From assembly GCA_902600895.1 (NCBI GenBank), contig CACKLF010000003.1, forward strand, positions 20,510 through 84,509: DNA of 64,000 bases, read 5' to 3'. The notes below the pieces were generated by a model, which saw only the letters and a list, made by a program, of their open reading frames with translations, was not told where the DNA came from and searched no databases. The DNA comes from an uncultured Alphaproteobacteria bacterium (lineage in GTDB: Bacteria > Pseudomonadota > Alphaproteobacteria > Rhodobacterales > Rhodobacteraceae). Position numbers and translations under genes: made by a program. Positions 2,840-40,734 of the stretch are shown here, piece by piece (positions within the stretch are counted from its first letter, which is position 1; each line of letters begins with the position of its first letter).

Positions 2840-3997
2840 ATGTCATTATTATCGTCAACTGCAGGCTGGGTAACAGAGGAGCATTCACTTTTTGCGGATG
2901 AGGCTTCAAAATTTTTAGATGTTGAGCTAAAACCTCAAATTGAAAAGTGGGCGAACAATGGAGTAGTGGAAAGAAGTTTTTGGAAGAAAGCTGGAGAAAT
3001 GGGACTAATGGGAGGAAGCGTACAGGAGGAATTTGGCGGCTCTGGTGGAGACATATCCTTTGACGCAATTACGGCATATTTACAAGCAGCAAAAGGTGAT
3101 GCTGGGTGGGGATACGGCATACAGAGTATAGTAATCCATTACATAAACGCCTATGGTTCAGACGAGCAAAAAGCCAAATGGTTACCACAGTTAGTAAATG
3201 GCGAAAAAATAGCCGCGTTAGCAATGACTGAACCAAATTGTGGATCCGACTTGCAGGCTATAAAGACTCATGCAGAAAAAGATGGAAATCAATACAAAAT
3301 TAATGGCTCGAAGACTTTTATAACAAATGGAGGAAGTGCTGACCTCATATGTTTAGCTGCAAAAACTGATCCCAGTGAAGGTTCTAAAGGTATATCACTC
3401 CTAATGGTTGAAACAGACAATTTAGAAGGCTTTAGACGTGGGACTCCCCTTAAAAAAGTTGGTATGAAAGGAAATGATACGGCTGAATTATTTTTCGAGA
3501 ATGTTAAAATTCCGCAAACTAATTTACTAGGGTCTGAGGAAGGTAAAGGCTTCTATCAGCTAATGAAACAACTTCCTTGGGAACGTCTTTATATAGGGAT
3601 AGCAGGTCTTGGCGCAGCAGACTGCGCTCTGGATGAAACGATTAAATATGTCAAGGAACGAAAAGCTTTTGGGAAAAGAGTATTTGATTTTCAAAATACT
3701 AAGTTTAAATTAGCTGAACTTAAGACAAAAGTTGAAGTAACAAGATCATTTATAAATGACTGCATACAAAAATTAATGTCAGAAGAATTGGATGCTGCAA
3801 CTGCATCAATGGCAAAGTATTGGGGCAGTCAAATACAAGGTGAAGTATTAGATGAATGTGTACAGCTTCACGGTGGTTATGGTTTTATGGCTGAATATCC
3901 TGTAGCTCGAATGTGGACTGACGCAAGAGTACAAAAAATTTATGGTGGCACTAATGAAATTATGAAAGAACTTATTGCTAGGTCTCTTGATATTTAA
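2840..3997 (+). CDS. Acyl-CoA dehydrogenase family protein
   Basis: LAMTEPNCGSDLQAIKTHAEK, ERKAFGKRVFDFQ, QLHGGYGFMAEYPVARMWTDARVQKIYGGTNEIMKELIAR. Confidence 0.95.
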   Translation: MSLLSSTAGWVTEEHSLFADEASKFLDVELKPQIEKWANNGVVERSFWKKAGEMGLMGGSVQEEFGGSGGDISFDAITAYLQAAKGDAGWGYGIQSIVIHYINAYGSDEQKAKWLPQLVNGEKIAALAMTEPNCGSDLQAIKTHAEKDGNQYKINGSKTFITNGGSADLICLAAKTDPSEGSKGISLLMVETDNLEGFRRGTPLKKVGMKGNDTAELFFENVKIPQTNLLGSEEGKGFYQLMKQLPWERLYIGIAGLGAADCALDETIKYVKERKAFGKRVFDFQNTKFKLAELKTKVEVTRSFINDCIQKLMSEELDAATASMAKYWGSQIQGEVLDECVQLHGGYGFMAEYPVARMWTDARVQKIYGGTNEIMKELIARSLDI

Positions 3998-4362
3998 GAA
4001 TCAAAATTATATCTCACATCATGCCAGCTATTAGTTGGAAAAATCCAAAGTATCTCCAGCGGTATCTTACCTATATTTTTTAAGCCGTGTTTTTCATTTT
4101 TTTTGATATATACCACCGAGTCTTTTCTGAGCTTTTGCTCTTCATTAGAACTTAGAAGCATACCTACTCCTTTTCTGACAATATAGATTTCCTGAGGAAT
4201 ATGATAATGTAGCGATAGTGAAGAGTTTATGGGTATGTGCAATATACCGCAAGAGATACCCTCACTCTTTGATATATTTTTGTCTACAAGCAATTTCCAT
4301 TTCAAGGGAGAATAGTCTTCATTACTCTGCCAATCTAATTTATCAATATTGGATATAAACAT
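3994..4362 (-). CDS. Small cupin-domain protein
   Basis: ISCGILHIPINSSLSLHYHIPQEIYIVRKGVGMLL...KKNEKHGLKNIG cupin motif pattern. Confidence 0.75.
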   Translation of the reverse strand: MFISNIDKLDWQSNEDYSPLKWKLLVDKNISKSEGISCGILHIPINSSLSLHYHIPQEIYIVRKGVGMLLSSNEEQKLRKDSVVYIKKNEKHGLKNIGKIPLEILWIFPTNSWHDVRYNFDS

Positions 4363-4436
4363 TTTACCTCATGTAATTTAAAAAGTTATTGAAAAAATCA
4401 TAAACATTATTGTAAAGATAAATAAAGTTTTATGAA

Positions 4437-5108
4437 ATGTACTTTGAATCTATGGATATCAAATTAATCTACTTTAATTTTCCTTTTTGGCGGGCGGAGG
4501 TATCAAGGATTGCTTTGTTTCATGCTGGTATAAAATTTAAAGATGTGAGAATATCCTCAGAGGATTTTTCTAACATCAAAACTAATGGCAAACTAAAAGA
4601 TGGAACCATTATCCCAACGAAAGCTCTTCCTTGTTTGACCGTTGATGGGGTAAGTATTTGTCAGACTGGTGCAATAGCAAGATTTTGTGGAAAGCTGAGC
4701 GGTCTATACCCGAACGATGACTATTTAGCATGCGCATCTATTGATCAAATACTGGATACCTGCACGGATATAACAAATTCCCTGTCATATCCACCTAATT
4801 TTCAAAATGAAAATGATCAAGAAAACTTCAGAAAATCCTTATGTCAAGTTGATGGAAAATTAACTAAATACCTTAAGGCATTAAATTTATTAATAAAAAA
4901 TTATAATATTATTATTAAAGACCTATCACCATCTCCACATTTTACTATTGGAGATCTGGCTACTTGGGGAATAGTAAAGTGGCTTAAGAGCGGTGTAATT
5001 GATTATATTCCTACTAACATAGCTGATTCATATTCAGATTTAATACTAACTCACAACAGAGTTTCTGAGCTGAAAACAGTTCAGGAGTGGCTATCAAAAA
5101 AATACTAG
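4437..5108 (+). CDS. Glutathione S-transferase-like protein
   Basis: Thioredoxin-fold start IKLIYFNFPFWRAEVSRIALFHAGIKFKDVRI, ALPCLTVDGVSICQTGAIARFCGKLSGLYP. Confidence 0.82.
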   Translation: MYFESMDIKLIYFNFPFWRAEVSRIALFHAGIKFKDVRISSEDFSNIKTNGKLKDGTIIPTKALPCLTVDGVSICQTGAIARFCGKLSGLYPNDDYLACASIDQILDTCTDITNSLSYPPNFQNENDQENFRKSLCQVDGKLTKYLKALNLLIKNYNIIIKDLSPSPHFTIGDLATWGIVKWLKSGVIDYIPTNIADSYSDLILTHNRVSELKTVQEWLSKKY

Positions 5109-5134
5109 GCAATTAATTCTGCGGAGAAAGTATA

Positions 5135-6112
5135 TCATCGTATTACATCTAATATTGTCACCCTATCAAAATTTGCACCACATAGAAGAACGACGCTTTC
5201 TTCCATATTAAAGCTAGCTTCATGCTTTAAATATCCCGCCAATGCTAAAGCTGCAGCTCCCTCCACTAAAACCTTCTCATCCCAAGCTAATAGTTTAAGG
5301 GCGCTCATGATGTCCTGTTCGCTACAATGAATAATTCTATCAATGACTTTACTCGCAATAGGCAAAGTGATTGAGTCATCATCAACACCTCCAGCACAGC
5401 CATCCGCCAGAGTTTCTAAATGCTCTGTTTCAACCACCTTACCCTGCTTGATGCTTGCGGCTAATGCTGCAGAATTTACTGCACTGACTCCTATAATCTT
5501 AACATTAGAAGACAAAGATTTGATGACAGATCCAATACCAGATATGAGGCCTCCACCTCCCATAGAGATGAAAACATTCTTTACTTTGGGTAATTGCTCT
5601 AGTATTTCAAATCCTATTGTTCCTTGTCCCGCGATTACGAATTCGTCATTGTAAGGCGAGACATATGTATAATTGTCAGAAGCTGCTAATTGGCGAGCTT
5701 TTTTTTCCGCCAAACCAGAGTCACCAGAGTTGAGCAATGTTTTTGTCCCATAACTTCTTATTTTTTCTAATTTTGCTCTTGAAACATTTTTGGGAAGTAC
5801 CACTGTCAGTTGATACCCCATAATTTTGGCTGCATAAGAACACGCTATTCCATGATTGCCAGATGAAGCGGTGATAATGTCTTTATTGGTTGGTAATTGA
5901 GAAATCTTTGATAACGCCCCCCGTACTTTAAAAGAGCCAGTCATTTGAAAATTCTCTGACTTGAAAAATAAAGAAGGACTAACTCTTGAACTTATTAAAG
6001 GGGTATAACTTATATCAGGGACTATAATTTTTCTAACTTTAGCACTATTTTTTGCTACCTGTGAGATTAGATCAGAATTTTTCATTATATTCTTTATTAT
6101 GTTTATTGCCAA
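5135..6112 (-). CDS. PLP-dependent threonine/serine dehydratase family (EutB-like); likely true start near 6085
   Basis: FFKSENFQMTGSFKVRGALSKI, TASSGNHGIACSYAAK, VFISMGGGGLISGIGSVIK, VVLLCGANFD motifs of fold-type II PLP enzymes. Confidence 0.88.
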   Translation of the reverse strand: MAINIIKNIMKNSDLISQVAKNSAKVRKIIVPDISYTPLISSRVSPSLFFKSENFQMTGSFKVRGALSKISQLPTNKDIITASSGNHGIACSYAAKIMGYQLTVVLPKNVSRAKLEKIRSYGTKTLLNSGDSGLAEKKARQLAASDNYTYVSPYNDEFVIAGQGTIGFEILEQLPKVKNVFISMGGGGLISGIGSVIKSLSSNVKIIGVSAVNSAALAASIKQGKVVETEHLETLADGCAGGVDDDSITLPIASKVIDRIIHCSEQDIMSALKLLAWDEKVLVEGAAALALAGYLKHEASFNMEESVVLLCGANFDRVTILDVIR

Positions 6113-11163: not shown

Positions 11164-12321
11164 TCAGGCCGAATACTGATTGGCAACCCACCCGTGAAAA
11201 TTATGAGTTGGCCCATCCATTGCCGGCGAAAACCGGCCTCCATCAAAAAATTTTCCATAGCGCCCCTTTTGCATTCCCTCAACTACGAAAATATCCTCTG
11301 AAAGTACTGACTTCCAAAACAAAAAATTGTCTTCTCTCAATTTGCTATAATCTTTATTAATTGACCGAGAACTAGCGTAAAATATATTTACACGCTCAAG
11401 AGTGAAATCTTTTGAGATGGGTTGTAAAATTACTGAAAAAATGTGGTCTCGATGAACTCCTAGTAAAACATTTGGATATAGTGCAATATATTCGGCTCCT
11501 GTTTTCCATGACTCTGAAAGATTTTCAAAATCAACAAATACCCGACCGTTATCACTAATCTGTGTATAATGGTAAGAGCCTTGGCCTGAAAATTGGTCTT
11601 TGCTTTCAATATTGTAATGATCTTCCAGTTTAGAAACTACGTTTAATTCAGGATGAACCCACGGCAGATGGTAACTTTCACAAAAATTTTCTACAGCCAA
11701 TTTCCAATTACATTTTAGCTCTAATTGGAAGGAGCTATAATTTTTACAAGAGAAAAGAGGCTTATTGAATTCACTCCATCTGGACATCAGGGAGCAATTA
11801 GTTTTTTCAAATGGCTCAGCTGAATCTGAAATATTTACAAAAATCACACCGAGATAGACATAAGATCGAATTTTTTTAAGTCGAAGGCTTTTCTTGTTCA
11901 AGTCTTTGTGATGATTATATCCAGGGCCTCCAATATGTGGTGTCGCGCGCAAACTGCCATCAAGATTGTAACTCCATGAGTGATAGGGGCATCTAATGGT
12001 TCCTCTTATATTTTTTTTCTCTTCAACTAATATCATTCCTCTGTGACGGCACACATTTTGGTAAACACATATTTGGTTCGTGTAATCTCTAACAATTAGT
12101 AGAGGAAAACCTAATAAATTTAAAGGCAAAGCATCACCTGGATTCACTACATCATGTTCAAATGCCACCCCTGACCAATTATCGTATAGCAAGCACTCTT
12201 TTTCTTTTTGGAAAACCTGTTCATCAATATAGTGAGAATTGGGCAAACCGTTAGCTTTGGATATTGGCAAATTTACTTTTGATAGATCAGAACACATTAG
12301 ATTCCCTTTTAATTTTTGCAA
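11164..12321 (-). CDS. Rieske non-heme iron aromatic ring-hydroxylating oxygenase, alpha subunit
   Basis: Rieske motif CRHRG...CPYHSWSYNLDG; catalytic-domain NWKLAVENFCESYHLPWVHPEL. Confidence 0.93.
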   Translation of the reverse strand: MQKLKGNLMCSDLSKVNLPISKANGLPNSHYIDEQVFQKEKECLLYDNWSGVAFEHDVVNPGDALPLNLLGFPLLIVRDYTNQICVYQNVCRHRGMILVEEKKNIRGTIRCPYHSWSYNLDGSLRATPHIGGPGYNHHKDLNKKSLRLKKIRSYVYLGVIFVNISDSAEPFEKTNCSLMSRWSEFNKPLFSCKNYSSFQLELKCNWKLAVENFCESYHLPWVHPELNVVSKLEDHYNIESKDQFSGQGSYHYTQISDNGRVFVDFENLSESWKTGAEYIALYPNVLLGVHRDHIFSVILQPISKDFTLERVNIFYASSRSINKDYSKLREDNFLFWKSVLSEDIFVVEGMQKGRYGKFFDGGRFSPAMDGPTHNFHGWVANQYSA

Positions 12322-13871: not shown

Positions 13872-14493
13872 AAATTATCAGTTTCCCAGGTCTATCAATT
13901 TTTGACATATAATTATGATCATCAATAGCAATTACTTCTATAATATTTAACGACACAAGTTTTTCTATGAATTTATTGTAGTCTTGTAATGCAAATGGCT
14001 CAGCATTCATGAAAATAACAACAATAGATCCCTGAGAGACAAAATCTACTAAAGTTTTAAGTGATTCTGGTCCAATATGACCCATTCCAAAACTACCAAC
14101 GCACATAAGCACATCGAATGTCTCATTGATGGAATTATCTAAATCTTCCACTCTTTTCTTATATAATTTTTTATATATGCCCTTCCCCTCTGCGATAGCT
14201 ATCATTTTAGATGAAACATCTAGGCCTGTAATGTTTAAAAATCCTAGCGAAATCAATTTTTCAGCAACGAGTCCAGTACCGCAACCAATATCAATAATTT
14301 CACAATCTTTTCTAGTTTCATACTTAAGCAATGCTTCAGATGCTATAATATGAGCACAGTAACCATATTCGTTTAATAGTTCATTTTCGTATTTTCTTGC
14401 CCAGTTATCGTAATGGGATTCGGGATCTATTTTGACATCTTTTCCAGATACGGCAGCTAAATTAGTTCCTATGGACTTTTTATTTATGTTCAA
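13858..14493 (-). CDS. SAM-dependent methyltransferase
   Basis: IIDIGCGTGLVAEKLISLGFLNITGLDVSSKMIAIAEGKG. Confidence 0.88.
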   Translation of the reverse strand: MNINKKSIGTNLAAVSGKDVKIDPESHYDNWARKYENELLNEYGYCAHIIASEALLKYETRKDCEIIDIGCGTGLVAEKLISLGFLNITGLDVSSKMIAIAEGKGIYKKLYKKRVEDLDNSINETFDVLMCVGSFGMGHIGPESLKTLVDFVSQGSIVVIFMNAEPFALQDYNKFIEKLVSLNIIEVIAIDDHNYMSKIDRPGKLIIFRRR

Positions 14494-16391
14494 GACTTTA
14501 TTCCTGCTGATATAAGCATATCTGCCAAATCGGCTAGAAATGTCTGATCTGTCGAAATAAAAGTTTTCATGGATCGCATCATAGACTTGATAGTCACGTC
14601 ATCTTTTAAACTGTGGATTTTTTTAACCAAATCTTTAGCCTTATCACCTTTTGCTTGTTTCATGAGAATATAAGCCATTATTCCCATGGCACCAATCTGA
14701 GCATCGCCAAAATACTGTTCACTTTCTGAAAGTTCCTTTGCTAATTTAAAAGCTTTCTCATATCGACCAAAACTGGTCAGTGATAATGAGTAGTTTAATT
14801 TTATATTCGCAGGTGGATAAGGAACTAAACTTAAGGCTTTCTGAAAGGTTTTTTGTGCATCATCAGGCATTTGCAATTGAGTAAATGTGTTCCCAGCCGC
14901 ACCTAGCGTAGTGATTCCCGTAGGATCTAACTCCACTCCCTTTCTATTATTAAATACAGCTTTCTCAATACGAATAGCATTGGTCATTTCTGGAAATAAT
15001 TGTGGCTGTTTAGCTAATAAACCGGCTTTTGTAGTGTAGGCAAATCCATAATCTGGACCACTAATTAGCGCCCGATCTACTAGATTATTCATATCTCTAG
15101 CTATAAATTGCACTTGGTCTTTTTCCATAAGTCCAGTAATATACTTACATGTCAAATACCAGGCATAATCAACTAAAATTACGGGATTTTCTGGCTCTAA
15201 AAGAAAAAGCTCTTCAAATAACTCAGTTGCCTTAATGACGCCATCCCGGTCACATCTCATATAGTTAATGTGTGCATTTTTTGATATAGACCAAGCCTGG
15301 GCACTCTTAAAATACTTTCTAGTATCATTTAATTTTTTGCCAGTGGTCAGCTTCACTTGCAACTCGCTGAGAACATTTTCTGCAATATTATCTTGAATAG
15401 AAAAGATATCATCAAATTCAAAGTCATATTTCTGAGACCAAATTATCTTTGATTTATTCAAATCTGAAAGTTCGACGGTGGTTCTAATTTTTTGATTAGC
15501 TATTTGGTTTGTGCCTGTTAATACAAAACGCACTCCATACCTTTCAACAATTTCCTGATCGATTAATTCTTTTTTAAATATAAAATCACTAGTACTTCTT
15601 GATTGAACTGTAAGCTGAGGATATTGGGATAGATATGATATAATTGTATCTGTCATCCCCTCAGTAACATGCTCATTAGTGTTATCACTGGAACGATGAA
15701 TGAAGGGTTTAATTAGCACAGATGGCTTATCACTGACTATAAATTTATCAACATCGTTCTGAAATGCTCTATTTACAACAAAACCTATAAGGAAGATAAA
15801 TAAGATGGTGGCAAAAACTAATGCATACAATGGTCTACTTGGTCCTGTTCGAAGAGACCGCTTTTGTGATGGTTCTACCAACACGTCATATGCCTGAAAG
15901 ATATTTTCTTTTACTTTTTGCGTACCAAGATTATTATATTCAAAATTTGTTTTGGATTTAACTAAATCAAAAATTGACTTAGAAACGGTTATCCCATTGG
16001 CCTGTGATAATGCCTCCAACCTGGCGGCAATGTTAACACCATCACCTAATAGATTTTTGCCCTCCAATATAACATCGCCCATATTTATCCCTATGCGATA
16101 TTCGAGTTTAATAAAGTCGCCTTCCCCTTTGTTTCTAAGAATCATTTTCTCTTGAAATTGAACACCTGCTTCAATCGCAGATACAGCACTTGGAAATTCA
16201 GCTAAGATTGAATCTCCACCCGTATTAAATATTCTGCCTTTTTTTATTTTGATTATTTCTTTTAAAATATTAGAACACTCACGAAGACTTTGTAGTGTGC
16301 CATTTTCGTTAGTTTCCATGTGCTTACTGTATGATACAACATCAGTAGCAAAAATTACTGTAATCTTTCTTTCAATATTCTCATCACTCAT
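14490..16391 (-). CDS. Class III adenylate/guanylate cyclase with central TM segment and TPR-like C-terminus
   Basis: KITVIFATDVVSYSKHMETNE...GRIFNTGGDSILAEF...GINMGDVILEGKNLLGDGVNIAARLEAL; TM LYALVFATILFIFLIGFVV; TPR-like C-terminal half. Confidence 0.9.
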   Translation of the reverse strand: MSDENIERKITVIFATDVVSYSKHMETNENGTLQSLRECSNILKEIIKIKKGRIFNTGGDSILAEFPSAVSAIEAGVQFQEKMILRNKGEGDFIKLEYRIGINMGDVILEGKNLLGDGVNIAARLEALSQANGITVSKSIFDLVKSKTNFEYNNLGTQKVKENIFQAYDVLVEPSQKRSLRTGPSRPLYALVFATILFIFLIGFVVNRAFQNDVDKFIVSDKPSVLIKPFIHRSSDNTNEHVTEGMTDTIISYLSQYPQLTVQSRSTSDFIFKKELIDQEIVERYGVRFVLTGTNQIANQKIRTTVELSDLNKSKIIWSQKYDFEFDDIFSIQDNIAENVLSELQVKLTTGKKLNDTRKYFKSAQAWSISKNAHINYMRCDRDGVIKATELFEELFLLEPENPVILVDYAWYLTCKYITGLMEKDQVQFIARDMNNLVDRALISGPDYGFAYTTKAGLLAKQPQLFPEMTNAIRIEKAVFNNRKGVELDPTGITTLGAAGNTFTQLQMPDDAQKTFQKALSLVPYPPANIKLNYSLSLTSFGRYEKAFKLAKELSESEQYFGDAQIGAMGIMAYILMKQAKGDKAKDLVKKIHSLKDDVTIKSMMRSMKTFISTDQTFLADLADMLISAGIKS

Positions 16392-17115: not shown

Positions 17116-17270
17116 TTTAATATTTTTAAAAGTATTTTTACTATTTAGTGAATTGTTAAAGCATAATAATTAACTAAAAAAAATGGTGACATCAATAATG
17201 ATTATTGTACCTATACAATCCACCTAATGATGAATATTATAAAGGTACACTCCTTAATGTGATTCTGATT

Positions 17271-19025
17271 ATGTCCGAAAAAAAAATTGATAGAAAAATA
17301 GCTGTTATTTTCGTTACCGATGTTGTCGGTTTTAGTAAACTAATGGAAAAAAATGAGGATGCCACCCTTCAAAGCTTTCGAACTTGTAAAGAAATACTGG
17401 AAAAGTTATTCGAGGAACACGGTGGCCGTATTTTTAATACAGCGGGAGATTCTGTATTAGCAGAATTCCAAAGCGCTGTATCAGCTGTTATTTGTGCATC
17501 TGAGTTTCAAAAACTTTTAAAGGAGCGAAATTCTAATGTAGCTGATGAATCTCAAATGCATTTTAGGATTGGTTTAAATATGGGAGATGTAATAGTAGAA
17601 GGAGAAAATCTTTACGGTGATGGGGTGAACGTAGCTGCTCGGCTTGAGGCACTTTCACAGCCTGACGGTGTCTGTTTATCCAAAAGCATACACGACTTTG
17701 TCGCGCAAAAAACAGATTTAATTTTTAATGATATCGGTGATCAAAAGGTTAAAAATACTGAAGTGCATGCATTTGATCTCTCACTTACCGGCCTTGAAAA
17801 GAGAGAAGTTGAAATTTCAGGAAAGGAAAACAGTGAAAGCGGCAAGCCACCCTCAATCGCGGTTTTACCATTTTTAAATCTAAGTAATGACGATGAACAG
17901 GAATATTTTGCCGATGGCATAACGGAGGATATAATATCTAATTTATCGCTTTGGAAAACATTCCCAGTTATTTCTAGAAACTCTTCATTCAGCTTCAAAG
18001 GAGCAAAAGAGAGGTCAGGCGAAATTGCTAAAAAATTAGGTGCTGACTATCTTGTAGAAGGGAGTGTTAGAAAAGGAGGAAATAAGGTACGCATAACGGC
18101 TCAACTTACTTTTGCTCCTGAAGAAAAGCAAATATGGTCAAAGCGATGGGATAGATCATTAGAAGATATTTTTGAAGTTCAAGATGAGGTTTCTCAGGAT
18201 GTGGCAGCTTTGATTTCTCCAGCTTTGAAAGATCAAGAGCGGGTTAAATTATCTAACAAGCCAAAAAAGAATTTTGGTGCTTGGGATGAATATTTACAAG
18301 GCTTAGCTATTTATAATGGACAAAGGTTTACTGAGCATGCCGGAACAGTCATTGAACATTGTAAAAAAGCTATAGAACTTGATGCTAATTTTTGTGATGC
18401 TTATGTTTTGTACTGTACTGCCCTACAATTTGCAATATATAATCATGAACAACAAGATGACAGAGCTGATAATGAGCGCTTGTTTCATCAATTAGCTGAA
18501 AAAGCAGTTGATCTGGACCCTGAGAATCCTGACGCACTATCAACACTAAGCTTATCGTACAGTATTAAAAAAGATTATGCAAAACGGTTAGAGCTCGCAG
18601 AGAAGGCCTTAGAAATAAATCCTAACCACCCTCGAACAAATTTCCAATACGGTCAAGCTTTGTCTAACTTTGGAAGATTTGAAGAAACCCTCCATCATGT
18701 TAATAAAGCAATTGAGTTAGATCCCATATCAAAAAGAAATTATGAGGGTTTTTATGTGTTACTTTATATAGCATTAAACGATTGGAATAACGCTTTAAAT
18801 TGGTGTGATATACTTCATGAAAGAGATCCCCATTCACGATTTTTGGGATGGAGGGCTGCAATATTAGCCATGAAAGGCGATGCTGATACAGCTAAGGAAT
18901 ATCTCGCAAAATATCAAAAAGAGCGTCCAGAAATAAAAACTGCTTCTGATTATGAAAAAGTAGCGCCTACAATAATTAAAGATGTTCTATTAGAGGGCTT
19001 AGTAAAAGCTGGGTTGCCAGAATAA
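17271..19025 (+). CDS. Class III adenylate/guanylate cyclase with TolB-like domain and TPR repeats
   Basis: RKIAVIFVTDVVGFSKLMEKNED...GGRIFNTAGDSVLAEF...LYGDGVNVAARLEAL; PPSIAVLPFLNLSNDDEQEYFADGITEDII; TPRs; start placed at the ATG at 17271. Confidence 0.92.
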   Translation: MSEKKIDRKIAVIFVTDVVGFSKLMEKNEDATLQSFRTCKEILEKLFEEHGGRIFNTAGDSVLAEFQSAVSAVICASEFQKLLKERNSNVADESQMHFRIGLNMGDVIVEGENLYGDGVNVAARLEALSQPDGVCLSKSIHDFVAQKTDLIFNDIGDQKVKNTEVHAFDLSLTGLEKREVEISGKENSESGKPPSIAVLPFLNLSNDDEQEYFADGITEDIISNLSLWKTFPVISRNSSFSFKGAKERSGEIAKKLGADYLVEGSVRKGGNKVRITAQLTFAPEEKQIWSKRWDRSLEDIFEVQDEVSQDVAALISPALKDQERVKLSNKPKKNFGAWDEYLQGLAIYNGQRFTEHAGTVIEHCKKAIELDANFCDAYVLYCTALQFAIYNHEQQDDRADNERLFHQLAEKAVDLDPENPDALSTLSLSYSIKKDYAKRLELAEKALEINPNHPRTNFQYGQALSNFGRFEETLHHVNKAIELDPISKRNYEGFYVLLYIALNDWNNALNWCDILHERDPHSRFLGWRAAILAMKGDADTAKEYLAKYQKERPEIKTASDYEKVAPTIIKDVLLEGLVKAGLPE

Positions 19026-24357: not shown

Positions 24358-26076
24358 ATGACAGAGGACTTAAATTCAATAATAAGAAGGCTAAGGGCGT
24401 TATCAGGAATAATACTTTTTATTTATGCTATAACCCACTTAATTAACCATTCGCTTAATGTTTACTCTATTGAGCTTGCCGATTTTGTTAGAGAACATTA
24501 TTGGCAACCAATATGGAAAAATTCACTCGGAACTTTTCTGCTTTATGGCTCACTTATCGTCCACATACCAATCGGTTTTTATAGTATAGCATCTAAAAAA
24601 TCATTTAGATTAACTGCTAGAGAATGGGTTCAATTAACTTTTCCAGTGTTGGCACTATTATTATTACTTCAACATATCTTAGGAGGATACATTTTAAACA
24701 GAATGTTTGAAAGCAATTTTGGTTACCAAGCTCTTTTTTCTAGTATATTGTCAGAACCCGCCGAGGCCACTATAGGAACAATACTTTTTACCCTAATGGT
24801 CATATTTATATGGACACATGGTGTTATCGGAATCAACCAACTGTTAAAATTTAATTTTCAAAATTATGATAAGTTCAAATTGGGCTTAAACGTTATATAT
24901 TATGCAGTACCTTCTCTTGCATTGGCTGGACTCTGGGCTGGCTTAAAGGAACAAAGTCTACTAGCCCAGTTCAAGGCTATACAAGGTGAAGAAGGCTTTT
25001 TAATGACAGTTTTAGGGAAGATTATACCAGCAGAGGCCTTCCCCTACCTTTTACCAATAGAACCATTAGTAATGAATAATTATCCTTTGGTTGTTTTAGC
25101 ACTAATTATCCTAACAACAATGAATGTATTACGCTCTAAGTATATTGGAAATATTAAAATCTCTTATCCCGAAGGCAGAGAAGTTACGGTTGCAAAAGGT
25201 ACCTCAATATTGGAAGCGAGCCGTTTGGCCAAAATCCCCCATCAGTCGGTTTGTGGAGGTAAAGCCAGATGTACAACCTGTCGCGTGAGAGTTATTTCAC
25301 ATGATGGGAATTTACCGAATCCTAATGCTTACGAGACAATGGCGATAAAAAAAGGTGGGCTTGAAGATGGAGTGAGGCTTGCTTGTCAGCTTCATCCAGC
25401 AGGAAATATAAAGATAATGCCATTAGTTAACCCTATAAATGTTCTTGAAAGAAATTCAAGTTTAGACGGCTTGTCTAAGCCAAAAGCTTTATCAGGCAAG
25501 GAACTTGAAACAGTAATACTTTTTATTGATTTAAGAGAATTTACTAAACTCTCTGAAAAAAAATTACCCTATGATATTGTGTATATTTTAAATAGATATT
25601 ACGCAACATGTGGTGAAATAATTGAGCGAAATGGTGGGAGACTTGATAAATTTATAGGTGATGGAATTATGGCTATATTTGACAATAACTCATCAGCTCA
25701 TACGATTTATAACGCATCTTTAAAATCTGCTTCTGAAATCTCCAAAAGGATGAAAGCTCTGAATTCAGAGCTAAGTGAAGATCTTTCTGAAAAACTAAAG
25801 TTTGGAATGGGAATTCACGCAGGTGATACCATTGTTGGCCTCATGGGATATGGTGAAACTTTTTCAGAAACAGCAGTTGGGGACAACGTTAATATCGCAA
25901 GTAGGTTGGAAGAGTTAACAAAAGCATACAAAGCGGAACTTGTTGTATCAAAATATGTTGTAGACTCTGCTGCCATAAATGTGGACAACTTTTCTATGGA
26001 TTCAGTTTCCATTAGAGGTAAAGATGAGAAAGTAGACATTTATACAATTAATGATGCATCTCGAATTTTTGCTTAG
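24358..26076 (+). CDS. Membrane-anchored adenylate cyclase with multi-TM N-terminus and [2Fe-2S] ferredoxin domain (CyaC-like)
   Basis: Several N-terminal TM helices with His residues (ITHLINHSLN, VHIPIGFY, LLQHILGGY, IWTHGVIG); CGGKARCTTC...LACQ ferredoxin cysteines; VILFIDLREFTKLSEK...LDKFIGDGIMAIF...AVGDNVNIASRLEEL cyclase. Confidence 0.92.
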   Translation: MTEDLNSIIRRLRALSGIILFIYAITHLINHSLNVYSIELADFVREHYWQPIWKNSLGTFLLYGSLIVHIPIGFYSIASKKSFRLTAREWVQLTFPVLALLLLLQHILGGYILNRMFESNFGYQALFSSILSEPAEATIGTILFTLMVIFIWTHGVIGINQLLKFNFQNYDKFKLGLNVIYYAVPSLALAGLWAGLKEQSLLAQFKAIQGEEGFLMTVLGKIIPAEAFPYLLPIEPLVMNNYPLVVLALIILTTMNVLRSKYIGNIKISYPEGREVTVAKGTSILEASRLAKIPHQSVCGGKARCTTCRVRVISHDGNLPNPNAYETMAIKKGGLEDGVRLACQLHPAGNIKIMPLVNPINVLERNSSLDGLSKPKALSGKELETVILFIDLREFTKLSEKKLPYDIVYILNRYYATCGEIIERNGGRLDKFIGDGIMAIFDNNSSAHTIYNASLKSASEISKRMKALNSELSEDLSEKLKFGMGIHAGDTIVGLMGYGETFSETAVGDNVNIASRLEELTKAYKAELVVSKYVVDSAAINVDNFSMDSVSIRGKDEKVDIYTINDASRIFA

Positions 26077-27508: not shown

Positions 27509-28510
27509 TCATTTAGCATTACTTTCCAATAGCCGACTTTGAAAATATGCCACACCTTGCTCATGTCTAGGAGATAGTGGACCTGGTCTATATGCACCAC
27601 TCTCATAATTTTTTTGCGTTTCAATACATACCTCAAAATCTTCCCTAATTACATTTAAATTATCACTAATTATCTTGTCTCTCTGTTTTTTTGTATTATC
27701 TGAGGTGCTTCTAAAATAAAAATTATATATGAGCTCAGTCTTGCCAGTATTAATGGGGTTAATGCGCGATGTATTCATACCACCCTCAAATAAAGATAAT
27801 GTCCAATTAGGCCACATCCATAACCACTTACCTTTGTAAAACAAACCATCTCTTGGTGGCGCAGTCATTCGCACATGTCCATTCAAGGCAGTTGTCTCAA
27901 ATTTATCAAAGTCTATTGCTTTATGAAAAGCAGGATGCACTCCTGGAATATGATAACCTTCCACAAAATTATCGGTGTATACTTTCCAGTTTGCATCAAA
28001 AACTAGTTTCTCTTCCTGTGTCCAATTATAATCTTCAATGGGATCATTTTGAAGTTCTTCAATCAAATCGCCGTATTCCAAATCAAAATTAGCCTCGGGC
28101 TGGATAGACAAAAATAAAAGACCCCGCCAAGTTTTTAAAAAAATTTCATCTAGCTTCCAATCTTTTGGTTCAAAATCTGGGTCTTGACCCCACCAAGGCA
28201 CATTGAGGAGTTCACCACCTTCTCCCCATACCCATTGGTGATAAGGACATCGTATTGTTGAAGAAGTTCCACATCCCTCAGGAAGTAATCTGGCCCCTCT
28301 GTGTCGACAGACATTTCTGAACGCCCTTATCCCCTTTTTTGTCTTGATTACAAATACTTTTAAACCAGAAATTTCGGTTGCATAATAATCCCCTCTTTTA
28401 GCTAATCTAGAAACTGGACACACCAATTGCCAACTGTTAGCAAAGATTTTTTGAACATCATCGTTATAGATTGTTGTACTAGTATAGTTCTCAGAAGGAA
28501 TATTTAACAT
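27509..28510 (-). CDS. Rieske non-heme iron ring-hydroxylating oxygenase, alpha subunit
   Basis: CRHRGARLLPEG...IRCPYHQWVWGEGGEL; ANWKVYTDNFVEGYHIPGVHPAF. Confidence 0.93.
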   Translation of the reverse strand: MLNIPSENYTSTTIYNDDVQKIFANSWQLVCPVSRLAKRGDYYATEISGLKVFVIKTKKGIRAFRNVCRHRGARLLPEGCGTSSTIRCPYHQWVWGEGGELLNVPWWGQDPDFEPKDWKLDEIFLKTWRGLLFLSIQPEANFDLEYGDLIEELQNDPIEDYNWTQEEKLVFDANWKVYTDNFVEGYHIPGVHPAFHKAIDFDKFETTALNGHVRMTAPPRDGLFYKGKWLWMWPNWTLSLFEGGMNTSRINPINTGKTELIYNFYFRSTSDNTKKQRDKIISDNLNVIREDFEVCIETQKNYESGAYRPGPLSPRHEQGVAYFQSRLLESNAK

Positions 28511-31131: not shown

Positions 31132-31506
31132 ATGAAAACATCCAAAGATTATCTTGAAGAGGCTAATAAAGTAGTTAGAAAGATTGATTTTTCTGAAGCT
31201 CTGATAAAGCATACTGAAAAAACTGCTATCTTTATAGATGTTAGGGATAGTTCAGAAATTGCAAAAACTGGTAGCATAACAGACTCTATAAAAATTCAAA
31301 GGGGCTTGATTGAATTTGTAGCAGATGAATCATCCAAGCTTTATAACTTGAAGCTAAAAAAAGACACTGAGATTATTTTAGTCTGTGGAGCTGGTGGACA
31401 AGCAGCTTTAACAGGCAAGACACTCATTGAAATGGGATATAGGAATGTAGCCAATTTAGGAGCAATAGGTGATTGGGAAAAAAATGGAGGACCAATGACC
31501 AAATAA
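31132..31506 (+). CDS. Rhodanese-like domain protein
   Basis: AIFIDVRDSSEIAKTGSITDSIKIQRG...IILVCGAGGQAALTGKTLIEMGYRNVANLGAIGDWEKNGGP with active-site Cys loop. Confidence 0.9.
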   Translation: MKTSKDYLEEANKVVRKIDFSEALIKHTEKTAIFIDVRDSSEIAKTGSITDSIKIQRGLIEFVADESSKLYNLKLKKDTEIILVCGAGGQAALTGKTLIEMGYRNVANLGAIGDWEKNGGPMTK

Positions 31507-38026: not shown

Positions 38027-38103
38027 GGGCGCGTAGCTCAGTTGGTTAGAGCAGAACGCTCATAACGTTTTGGTCGCAGGTTCGAGTCCTGCCGCGCCTA
38101 CCA
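38027..38103 (+). tRNA. tRNA-Met (CAT), probably elongator
   Basis: GGGCGCGTAGCTCAGTTGGTTAGAGCAGAACGCTCATAACGTTTTGGTCGCAGGTTCGAGTCCTGCCGCGCCTACCA; acceptor GGGCGCG/CGCGCCT pairs with one G-U; anticodon CAT (a lysidine-modified Ile tRNA cannot be excluded). Confidence 0.92.
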
Positions 38104-38258: not shown

Positions 38259-38780
38259 AATGTGATAATTCATGATAAATCAAGATTATTTAAACCTTAT
38301 AAGCATCTGTTAATTATTGTTAATTACTGAAATTATAGTGCAACCCGCTATTCAATTTTTGCTGCGCCCATGATTAACTTTATGCTAAGCTTGTGGTTTT
38401 AATAATTTAAGCTGCAAGTGCGGCACTTTTTAAAAATGTAAAGATAAAATCTTATCTCACCGCATGAGAGTAAACCAATTTGGCAACACTCCAACTCATA
38501 ACATTTTAGTTTTTATAATATTTTCAATTCTAGTTATATTTGTAGATTTTCCATAAAAATGTCATTTTCAATCAAAGTAAGAACTATCCTACCAATATTC
38601 AATTTAAAGAAAAAATATTAACAAATCTGCATAAAACATATTCATTAATTAAAACGATAGATGTTTACAATTTTATTCTCTTTAATATTAGCCAGTGAAA
38701 GGTTATATCTTCAGACTATTGAGATCTAACTCTATAAAGAAGCAAGCACTTTCAGTTGATCTAGGAGGAAATAATCCGCT

Positions 38781-40550
38781 ATGACTATGAAAAAACCTTT
38801 TGCCGTTGATGTCGTTGAAGGTTCCAACTATTTTTGGTGCAGTTGCGGTCTCAGCAAAAAGCAACCTTTTTGTGATGGAAGTCATGCCGGATCAAAATTT
38901 TCACCAAAGAAATTTACTGCAACTGAATCTAAAAAAGTATTTTTTTGTGGATGTAAAAAAAGTGCAAATAAGCCTTTTTGTGATGGTACCCACAACCAAC
39001 TAAGCGAAGTACAAAGTTTGAAGGAACCTTTTGCTGTTGATGTGGCTGAGGGTTCCAACTATTTTTGGTGCAGTTGTGGTCTCAGCAAAAAGCAACCTTT
39101 TTGTGATGGAAGTCATGCCGGATCAGAATTTTCACCAAAAAAATTTACTGCAACTGAGTCTAAAAAGGTATTTTTTTGTGGATGTAAAAAAAGTTCAAAT
39201 AAACCTTTTTGCGATGGTACCCACAACCAGTTAAGTGACTTGAAAGGTCCAAGCAAATCATTTTTAGCAAATGTACGGCCAGATAACATAAAGATTGATA
39301 TATCGTCGGAGGAATCAATTTTAATCGCCTCACTAAGAAATAATCTTAATCATTTAAGCGCTTGTGGAGGAACTGGTAAATGCTCTACCTGTCGTATTGA
39401 GATACTTGAAGGTCTAGAAAATTGCCTGCCTAGAAATAAACTAGAACAGACCCTAGCTGCAAGATTATCATTCCCATCAAATATTCGGTTAGGATGTCAA
39501 ACAAAAATAAAAGGGGATGTAACCTACAGAAGGCTTTTACTAGATAAGAAGGACGCTGACTTAAGTAATCAGGTAGCCAATCAAAAACTAGAGTCTGTTG
39601 GAACTATAAGAAATTTAACAATATTATTTTGTGATATAAAAGGTTTTACACCATTCTCTGAATCTCTTTCAGCCTACGATGTGATATTTATTTTAAATCG
39701 ATATATTTCGATTATGCGAGAGATCATTATCGATCATGGAGGAGAAATAAACAACTATATAGGTGACGCAATCCTAGCGATATTTGGTTTAAAAGAATCA
39801 AGACAACAATCTCTAAGAGCTGTAAGTACAGCAACGAAAATGCTAGAAGCAATGGATAATTTTAAGTTATATCTCAAACAGGCGTATGGTCGAGAATTTG
39901 ATATAAGGATAGGAATTCATTACGGTGAAGTGATTTCAGGTTCAGTAGGTTTCGGAGAAGACAGAAAAGATACTGTTATTGGAGATGCGGTAAACATAGC
40001 AAGTAGAATAGAGGCAATTAATAAAGAATCTGGCACCAGACTACTTATTTCTGAAAATGTATATGAGCAAGTAAAGAACCATATAAGCGTAAAGAATTTT
40101 CTGCGATTAAAGCTGAGGGGGTCGAGTAACTTGATTACACTCCACGAGGTTAGCCAATTGAAAAGTGACTTCTTAAATTTTAAAGTGATTGAGGAAGAGA
40201 AAATTATTGACAACAGAAAATGGTTCAGAACCTTACCTGTTAGTGAATTAGGCCCAGGTGAAAAGAAGAAGTTCAAATTAAAAAATAGGGAAATTTTATT
40301 AATTAATCAGGGTGACATTTTTGTAATTGAAAATCTTTGTCCTCATATGGATTTACCATTAGACATTGGACAAATTACTGAGGATGATACTATTATGTGT
40401 CCATATCATAATAGTGAATTCTGTTTTAAAACTGGGGAGGTCAGGAAATGGATCGGTGAGGACCCAAAATTGAAACTAGATGACTGTAAACCATTAAAAA
40501 TAATAAATGTACAGAAACGAGATGATTACATTTGGGTTGCAGAGACATAA
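38781..40550 (+). CDS. Multi-domain Fe-S nucleotidyl cyclase: 4x CDGSH motifs - [2Fe-2S] ferredoxin - class III cyclase - Rieske
   Basis: CSCGLSKKQPFCDGSH, CGCKKSANKPFCDGTH, CSCGLSKKQPFCDGSH, CGCKKSSNKPFCDGTH; CGGTGKCSTC...LGCQ; LTILFCDIKGFTPFSES...NNYIGDAILAIFG...TVIGDAVNIASRIEAI; CPHMDLPLDIG...CPYHNSEF; AGGAGG SD at 38763. Confidence 0.95.
   Translation: MTMKKPFAVDVVEGSNYFWCSCGLSKKQPFCDGSHAGSKFSPKKFTATESKKVFFCGCKKSANKPFCDGTHNQLSEVQSLKEPFAVDVAEGSNYFWCSCGLSKKQPFCDGSHAGSEFSPKKFTATESKKVFFCGCKKSSNKPFCDGTHNQLSDLKGPSKSFLANVRPDNIKIDISSEESILIASLRNNLNHLSACGGTGKCSTCRIEILEGLENCLPRNKLEQTLAARLSFPSNIRLGCQTKIKGDVTYRRLLLDKKDADLSNQVANQKLESVGTIRNLTILFCDIKGFTPFSESLSAYDVIFILNRYISIMREIIIDHGGEINNYIGDAILAIFGLKESRQQSLRAVSTATKMLEAMDNFKLYLKQAYGREFDIRIGIHYGEVISGSVGFGEDRKDTVIGDAVNIASRIEAINKESGTRLLISENVYEQVKNHISVKNFLRLKLRGSSNLITLHEVSQLKSDFLNFKVIEEEKIIDNRKWFRTLPVSELGPGEKKKFKLKNREILLINQGDIFVIENLCPHMDLPLDIGQITEDDTIMCPYHNSEFCFKTGEVRKWIGEDPKLKLDDCKPLKIINVQKRDDYIWVAET
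38793..39005 (+). repeat. Tandem duplication unit 1 (two CDGSH motifs)
   Basis: 71 codons, 16 nt differences from unit 2 by hand alignment (about 12 synonymous, 4 nonsynonymous), period 231 bp. Confidence 0.9.
39024..39236 (+). repeat. Tandem duplication unit 2 (two CDGSH motifs)
   Basis: Same as unit 1, offset 231 bp. Confidence 0.9.
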
Positions 40551-40685: not shown

Positions 40686-40734
40686 ACAATCTTAGTCAGT
40701 AAATTTTTTTAAAAAATTTACTGACTAAGATTGT
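40686..40734. terminator. Near-perfect 24-bp-arm palindrome between convergent genes, likely bidirectional terminator
   Basis: acaatcttagtcagtaaatttttt - t - aaaaaatttactgactaagattgt, located between the stops at 40550 (+) and 40758 (-). Confidence 0.65.

Follow-up and report, generated by a model that had tools for sequence, protein, structure and literature searches.

A predicted soluble nucleotidyl cyclase fused to CDGSH, ferredoxin and Rieske domains in Alphaproteobacteria

The fusion gene and its surroundings

The window, that is, the whole 64,000-nucleotide stretch of contig CACKLF010000003.1 analysed here, contains at 38781–40550 (+) a single uninterrupted open reading frame that starts with ATG and encodes 589 amino acids. 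Read directly from the sequence, a Shine-Dalgarno-like AGGAGG (38763–38768, +) lies 12 nt 5' of the start codon. The domain order is CDGSH(x4)-Fer2-cyclase-Rieske, and every domain, as in the relatives described below, scores above the Pfam curated cut-offs: zf-CDGSH (PF09360) in four stretches (E 1.9e-36 for the whole protein), Fer2 at aa 165–244 (39273–39512, +; 1.8e-7), Guanylate_cyc (PF00211) at aa 276–452 (39606–40136, +; 4.4e-25) and Rieske (PF00355) at aa 480–557 (40218–40451, +; 1.2e-15). A phmmer search of PDB sequences confirmed all four domain types, matching the CDGSH part to 3tbn and human CISD3 6avj, the ferredoxin part to the adrenodoxin homologue 2mjd, the cyclase part to CyaB/Cya2-type cyclases and the Rieske part to the dioxygenase Rieske ferredoxins 3dqy and 4emj. 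A preliminary description of this DNA had placed four CDGSH motifs, a ferredoxin, a cyclase and a Rieske site on one reading frame; all are present, and its motif coordinates are exact (CGGTGKCSTC at aa 195–204, from 39363; CPH at aa 520–522, from 40338; CPYH at aa 540–543, from 40398). The last two form the CxH...CxxH signature of a Rieske site. We found no hydrophobic or membrane segment in the 589-aa protein, and in each domain the non-synonymous change is much lower than the synonymous change, which indicates purifying selection. An AlphaFold2 model has a mean pLDDT of 78 and a pTM of 0.51, with the cyclase, Rieske and Fer2 domains mostly at 80–95 and the CDGSH part lower, mostly at 40–80. 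Hence the larger predicted folds are credible, whereas the relative placement of the domains is low-confidence and not credible as modelled.

The four CDGSH motifs, each of which keeps its three Cys and one His, amount to two copies of a single two-motif module. A stretch of 220 nt recurs at a spacing of 231 nt with 92% identity, giving copy 1 at 38788–39007 (+; motifs at aa 20–35 and 56–71) and copy 2 at 39019–39238 (+; motifs at aa 97–112 and 133–148). The copies differ mainly at silent sites (dS 0.40, dN 0.029), so both appear constrained, or homogenised by conversion, and they are not an assembler echo. All relatives found carry a single module with two motifs; on this comparison, the four motifs in the window are a lineage-specific 231-bp tandem duplication. 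The suggestion that one chain could hold up to six [2Fe-2S] clusters would therefore apply to this lineage, but for the family, with two CDGSH motifs, the figure would be up to four. Type 6 CISD proteins are defined by tandem CDGSH motifs approximately 20 residues apart (PMC3174974), and the module shows this spacing with all ligands in place, as in MmCISD (3tbn), which the fusion protein matches. However, MmCISD is a stand-alone protein of approximately 79 aa, whereas the module in the window is fused and doubled. The same classification lists as type 5 this module fused to glutamate synthase and leaves cyclases unmentioned (PMC3174974). Elsewhere, a two-motif CDGSH module is fused to a cupin-domain protein (L059:4034–5092), and L080:1771–2823 shares its start and size.

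The ferredoxin domain had been called plant-type, which implies Cx4CxxC. The actual spacing is Cx5CxxC...C, as in the adrenodoxin/NqrF/ISC group, and NCBIfam matches include nqrF and fdx_isc; the cluster ligands C195, C201, C204 and C239 are invariant in the alignment. Among the domains of the protein, conservation is highest in the cyclase (82–83% identity in close relatives). Within the close CDGSH clade the 23-aa linker between ferredoxin and cyclase (aa 251–273; 39531–39599, +) is 65–78% identical and the cyclase-Rieske linker 29–38%. For the outer linkers, which join CDGSH and Rieske to the core, identity is 27–55%, and the one between CDGSH and ferredoxin is poorly conserved.

The gene stands alone in the window. 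Upstream are a tRNA-Met gene (38027–38103), which could have served transferred DNA as a landing site and is the only RNA element detected upstream of the fusion gene, and a divergent gene of the acyl-CoA dehydrogenase family. Downstream, an unrelated convergent gene follows behind a perfect 24-bp inverted repeat (40686–40734), which is A/T-rich with a 1-nt loop and possibly acts as a bidirectional terminator between the convergent genes. Promoter and terminator scans at the fusion gene gave nothing clearly above shuffled background. Four cyclase genes, the fusion gene among them, lie within one 26-kb part of the window; in those at 14490–16391 (-) and 17205–19025 (+) a long C-terminal part follows the cyclase domain, and the fourth (24358–26076, +) encodes, by sequence comparison, a CyaC-type membrane paralogue with a hydrophobic N-terminal part containing four conserved His, then Fer2 and cyclase. 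The host genome has three such paralogues (L002, L003 and L004, the last being the one in the window). It also encodes four proteins with cyclic-nucleotide-binding domains, which are candidate receptors.

Relatives and family history

The same domain order occurs in 11 other genomes, mostly of SAR116-type marine bacteria, as found by a scan of genome contigs and by genome searches. In the SAR116-type family 8 of 61 genomes have the fusion, seven as complete genes (L016–L019, L155–L157) and one split over two contigs (L158/L159). It is also present in NAT185, which is labelled Rhodobacteraceae (L020; the assembly contains some N), and in two genomes of a third family (L125, L143). Among 395 genomes searched in the order to which the window genome belongs, no other has it, and no plasmid record covered 80% of the query for the full architecture. 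A phage-borne origin was also considered, and a scan of viral contigs returned no relative.

Simpler forms are spread more widely. Fer2-cyclase-Rieske proteins that have no CDGSH module, and that share the C-terminal Rieske domain with the protein in the window, are encoded by large plasmids of Rhizobium gallicum R602 and R. etli 8C-3, by Bacteriovoracales, and by further alphaproteobacteria (L126, L160) and SAR116 genomes. The simplest soluble form, a Fer2-cyclase of approximately 310 aa, occurs in several other Pseudomonadota. Proteins of these two forms (for example L127, L021–L026 and L196 of R. gallicum R602) have the same soluble core at 36–47% identity but lack the CDGSH module, and we found none that has been characterised. 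On R. gallicum plasmid pRgalR602c (L196), a TetR-like gene (2928–3515, identified by reading) lies upstream of the Fer2-cyclase-Rieske gene (3905–5362), which recalls the pairing of Sinorhizobium meliloti CyaC with the TetR-like CycR (PMC10463352).

A maximum-likelihood tree built on the Fer2-cyclase core separates 40 membrane proteins from the soluble ones (100/100). Proteins with CDGSH form one clade (100/99) beside the Fer2-cyclase-Rieske proteins of SAR116 (100/99 for the two together), and the deeper branches are without CDGSH. This topology suggests that a soluble ferredoxin-cyclase gained first the Rieske domain, then a two-motif CDGSH module, and that the latter was doubled in the lineage of the window; the Rieske domain may have been gained or lost more than once. 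The protein in the window is 73% identical to that of L016, whereas PrfA of the same two genomes is only 53% identical, and PrfA of the window genome is nearest to its own family (58–59%, against 52–57% for the other lineages tested). We infer that this difference fits horizontal transfer between marine lineages.

Neighbours of the gene vary among the relatives, and we found no conserved operon around it. In the third family (L125:52–4520, L143:46–3524) the fusion is flanked by guaB (IMP dehydrogenase) and guaA (GMP synthase), each a few bases away, an apparent co-transcription with the GMP synthesis genes. Three SAR116 genomes have a DCC1-like thiol-disulfide gene divergent from the fusion, which in two of them is then followed by an ABC transporter and a FUR-family gene (Pfam on the L016 copies). 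In L020 a gene for a cyclic-nucleotide-binding protein lies 2.5 kb from the fusion. Similar rhodanese-domain genes lie adjacent to the fusion in L020 (3128–3532) and approximately 7 kb from it in the window (31132–31506).

Cyclase chemistry, proposed gating and alternatives

The cyclase domain has the residues of a class III enzyme, as the metal-binding D285 and D329 and the transition-state N405 and R409 are invariant. The position of the ATP-specifying Lys of canonical adenylyl cyclases is, however, occupied by N325. Every aligned CDGSH member has Asn there, as do R. gallicum and the Rieske forms of SAR116 and Bacteriovoracales. Lys is present in L126, in L127 and in 38 of 40 membrane relatives (the other two did not match the pattern); guanylyl cyclases have Glu (PMC4215837). 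With Asn at this position a preference for ATP cannot be assumed, so the earlier assignment of cAMP or cGMP as the product is not a safe one. The best structural matches of the predicted cyclase domain are the guanylyl cyclase Cya2 (2w01), which is closest (TM by target 0.85–0.89, chains B and C), and the catalytic domains of the CyaB/CyaC adenylyl cyclases, but Cya2 has an E-G substrate pair (PMC4215837) and the protein in the window N-T.

All four membrane His and all four ferredoxin Cys are invariant in the 40 membrane relatives. CyaC, for which Wissig et al. 2019 is the primary paper, is the closest characterised protein, and it likewise has a four-Cys [2Fe-2S] domain directly before a class III cyclase, with redox input as the proposed control in both. 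CyaC of S. meliloti (SMc01818) is a redox-regulated adenylate cyclase that combines a six-helix membrane part carrying two hemes b with a [2Fe-2S] cluster and the cyclase, and that is activated after oxidation by quinones (PMC10463352). In contrast, the protein in the window has no membrane segment or heme part, and hence no six-helix anchor with four heme-ligating His; it has the additional CDGSH and Rieske domains, is without the Lys that specifies ATP and branches separately in the core tree.

We consider it probable, though well short of certain, that the fusion protein works as a soluble nucleotidyl cyclase of class III under the control of the redox state of its Fe-S clusters. A redox- or iron-gated cyclase is the most likely function, and this reading is strengthened by the homology of its core to the membrane ferredoxin-cyclases, whose characterised member, CyaC, is redox-controlled. 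The mode of gating may differ, since the soluble group branches apart from the CyaC type in its Fer2 and cyclase domains. We infer that the ferredoxin serves as the switch, with CDGSH and Rieske as tethered partners for electrons or clusters. The ferredoxin domain would act on a presumably homodimeric cyclase through the conserved 23-aa linker, as the corresponding part may do in the quinone-responsive CyaC. The type 6 CDGSH module, doubled in the window, and the dioxygenase-type Rieske domain would take the place of the diheme anchor of CyaC, tethered by variable linkers, and would either trade electrons with donors in the cytosol or signal oxidant or Fe-S status to the ferredoxin domain. As output we expect a cyclic nucleotide, probably cAMP or one set by relaxed specificity, for which small cyclic-nucleotide-binding proteins would be the readers. 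The sequence itself establishes the domains, the conserved cluster ligands and catalytic residues and the family history; the loading of the clusters, the gating and its direction, the product and the receptor are predictions. In a stronger version, a NEET-type (CDGSH) cluster would directly control the enzyme: when CDGSH and Rieske clusters are lost, gained or change their redox state, the ferredoxin would relay this to a cyclase whose nucleotide preference is non-canonical. This version is more tentative and on balance doubtful.

A related explanation is that cyclase activity is set by cluster occupancy, with labile CDGSH clusters gained or lost under iron or oxidative stress, and not by redox poise. 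Clusters of the CDGSH superfamily are labile and transferable, and a FUR-family gene is found downstream of the fusion in L016. However, the CDGSH module is a late addition to a core ferredoxin-cyclase and a Rieske form that both exist without it, and the weak conservation of the linker between CDGSH and ferredoxin does not favour tight coupling; we regard occupancy sensing as unlikely. Lower still we place a multi-cluster electron carrier, serving for example an oxygenase, in which the cyclase domain is vestigial or only a dimerisation scaffold. The Rieske domain does resemble dioxygenase ferredoxins such as HcaC, Rieske-type proteins were also read from the sequence at 11164–12321 and 27509–28510, and the change from Lys to Asn in the active site could be taken the same way, but invariant metal and transition-state residues in the best-conserved domain of the protein make a carrier improbable.

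The chance of a Pycsar-like antiphage cyclase is slight to the point of vanishing: the PADLOC PycC profiles that match the cyclase domain (1.1e-25) match the CyaC-type paralogue (4.1e-21) and a plain soluble Fer2-cyclase (4.7e-27) about equally, so that the match reports the class III fold only, and the neighbouring acyl-CoA dehydrogenase family gene and unrelated convergent gene include no cyclic-nucleotide-responsive effector. Just as improbable is an artefact of assembly or binning, a concern raised by the preliminary description and by an assembly that is 60% complete in 76 contigs. The same domain order in 11 other genomes rules out a false joining of separate genes, and the two CDGSH copies differ by 8%. 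Contamination of the bin by SAR116 is unsupported, given that PrfA on the same contig best fits the genome's own family.

Significance for Fe-S-coupled cyclases

Cyclases coupled to Fe-S clusters are already known, and it is the addition of CDGSH and Rieske domains that appears to be new. The preliminary description knew of no protein with this exact architecture; a ferredoxin-cyclase under redox control is known from CyaC. In the open-licence literature searched we found no report of a CDGSH-cyclase, a Rieske-cyclase or a SAR116 adenylate cyclase, and a survey of the beta-grasp fold makes no mention of cyclases (PMC1949818).

The stepwise series of core, added Rieske, added CDGSH and second CDGSH allows domain-by-domain tests, and the Rieske-only form is available in the culturable R. 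gallicum R602 and R. etli 8C-3. NEET/CDGSH proteins are widespread and their role in bacteria is unclear. A CDGSH module fused to an enzyme with an easy read-out, a cyclic nucleotide, would let sensing of redox, iron or cluster supply be asked about directly. The proposed gating would bring to the cytosol a redox control of cyclases that CyaC exemplifies at the respiratory membrane and, if true, direct NEET control of a cyclase would constitute a soluble cytosolic sensor of Fe-S status of an undescribed kind.
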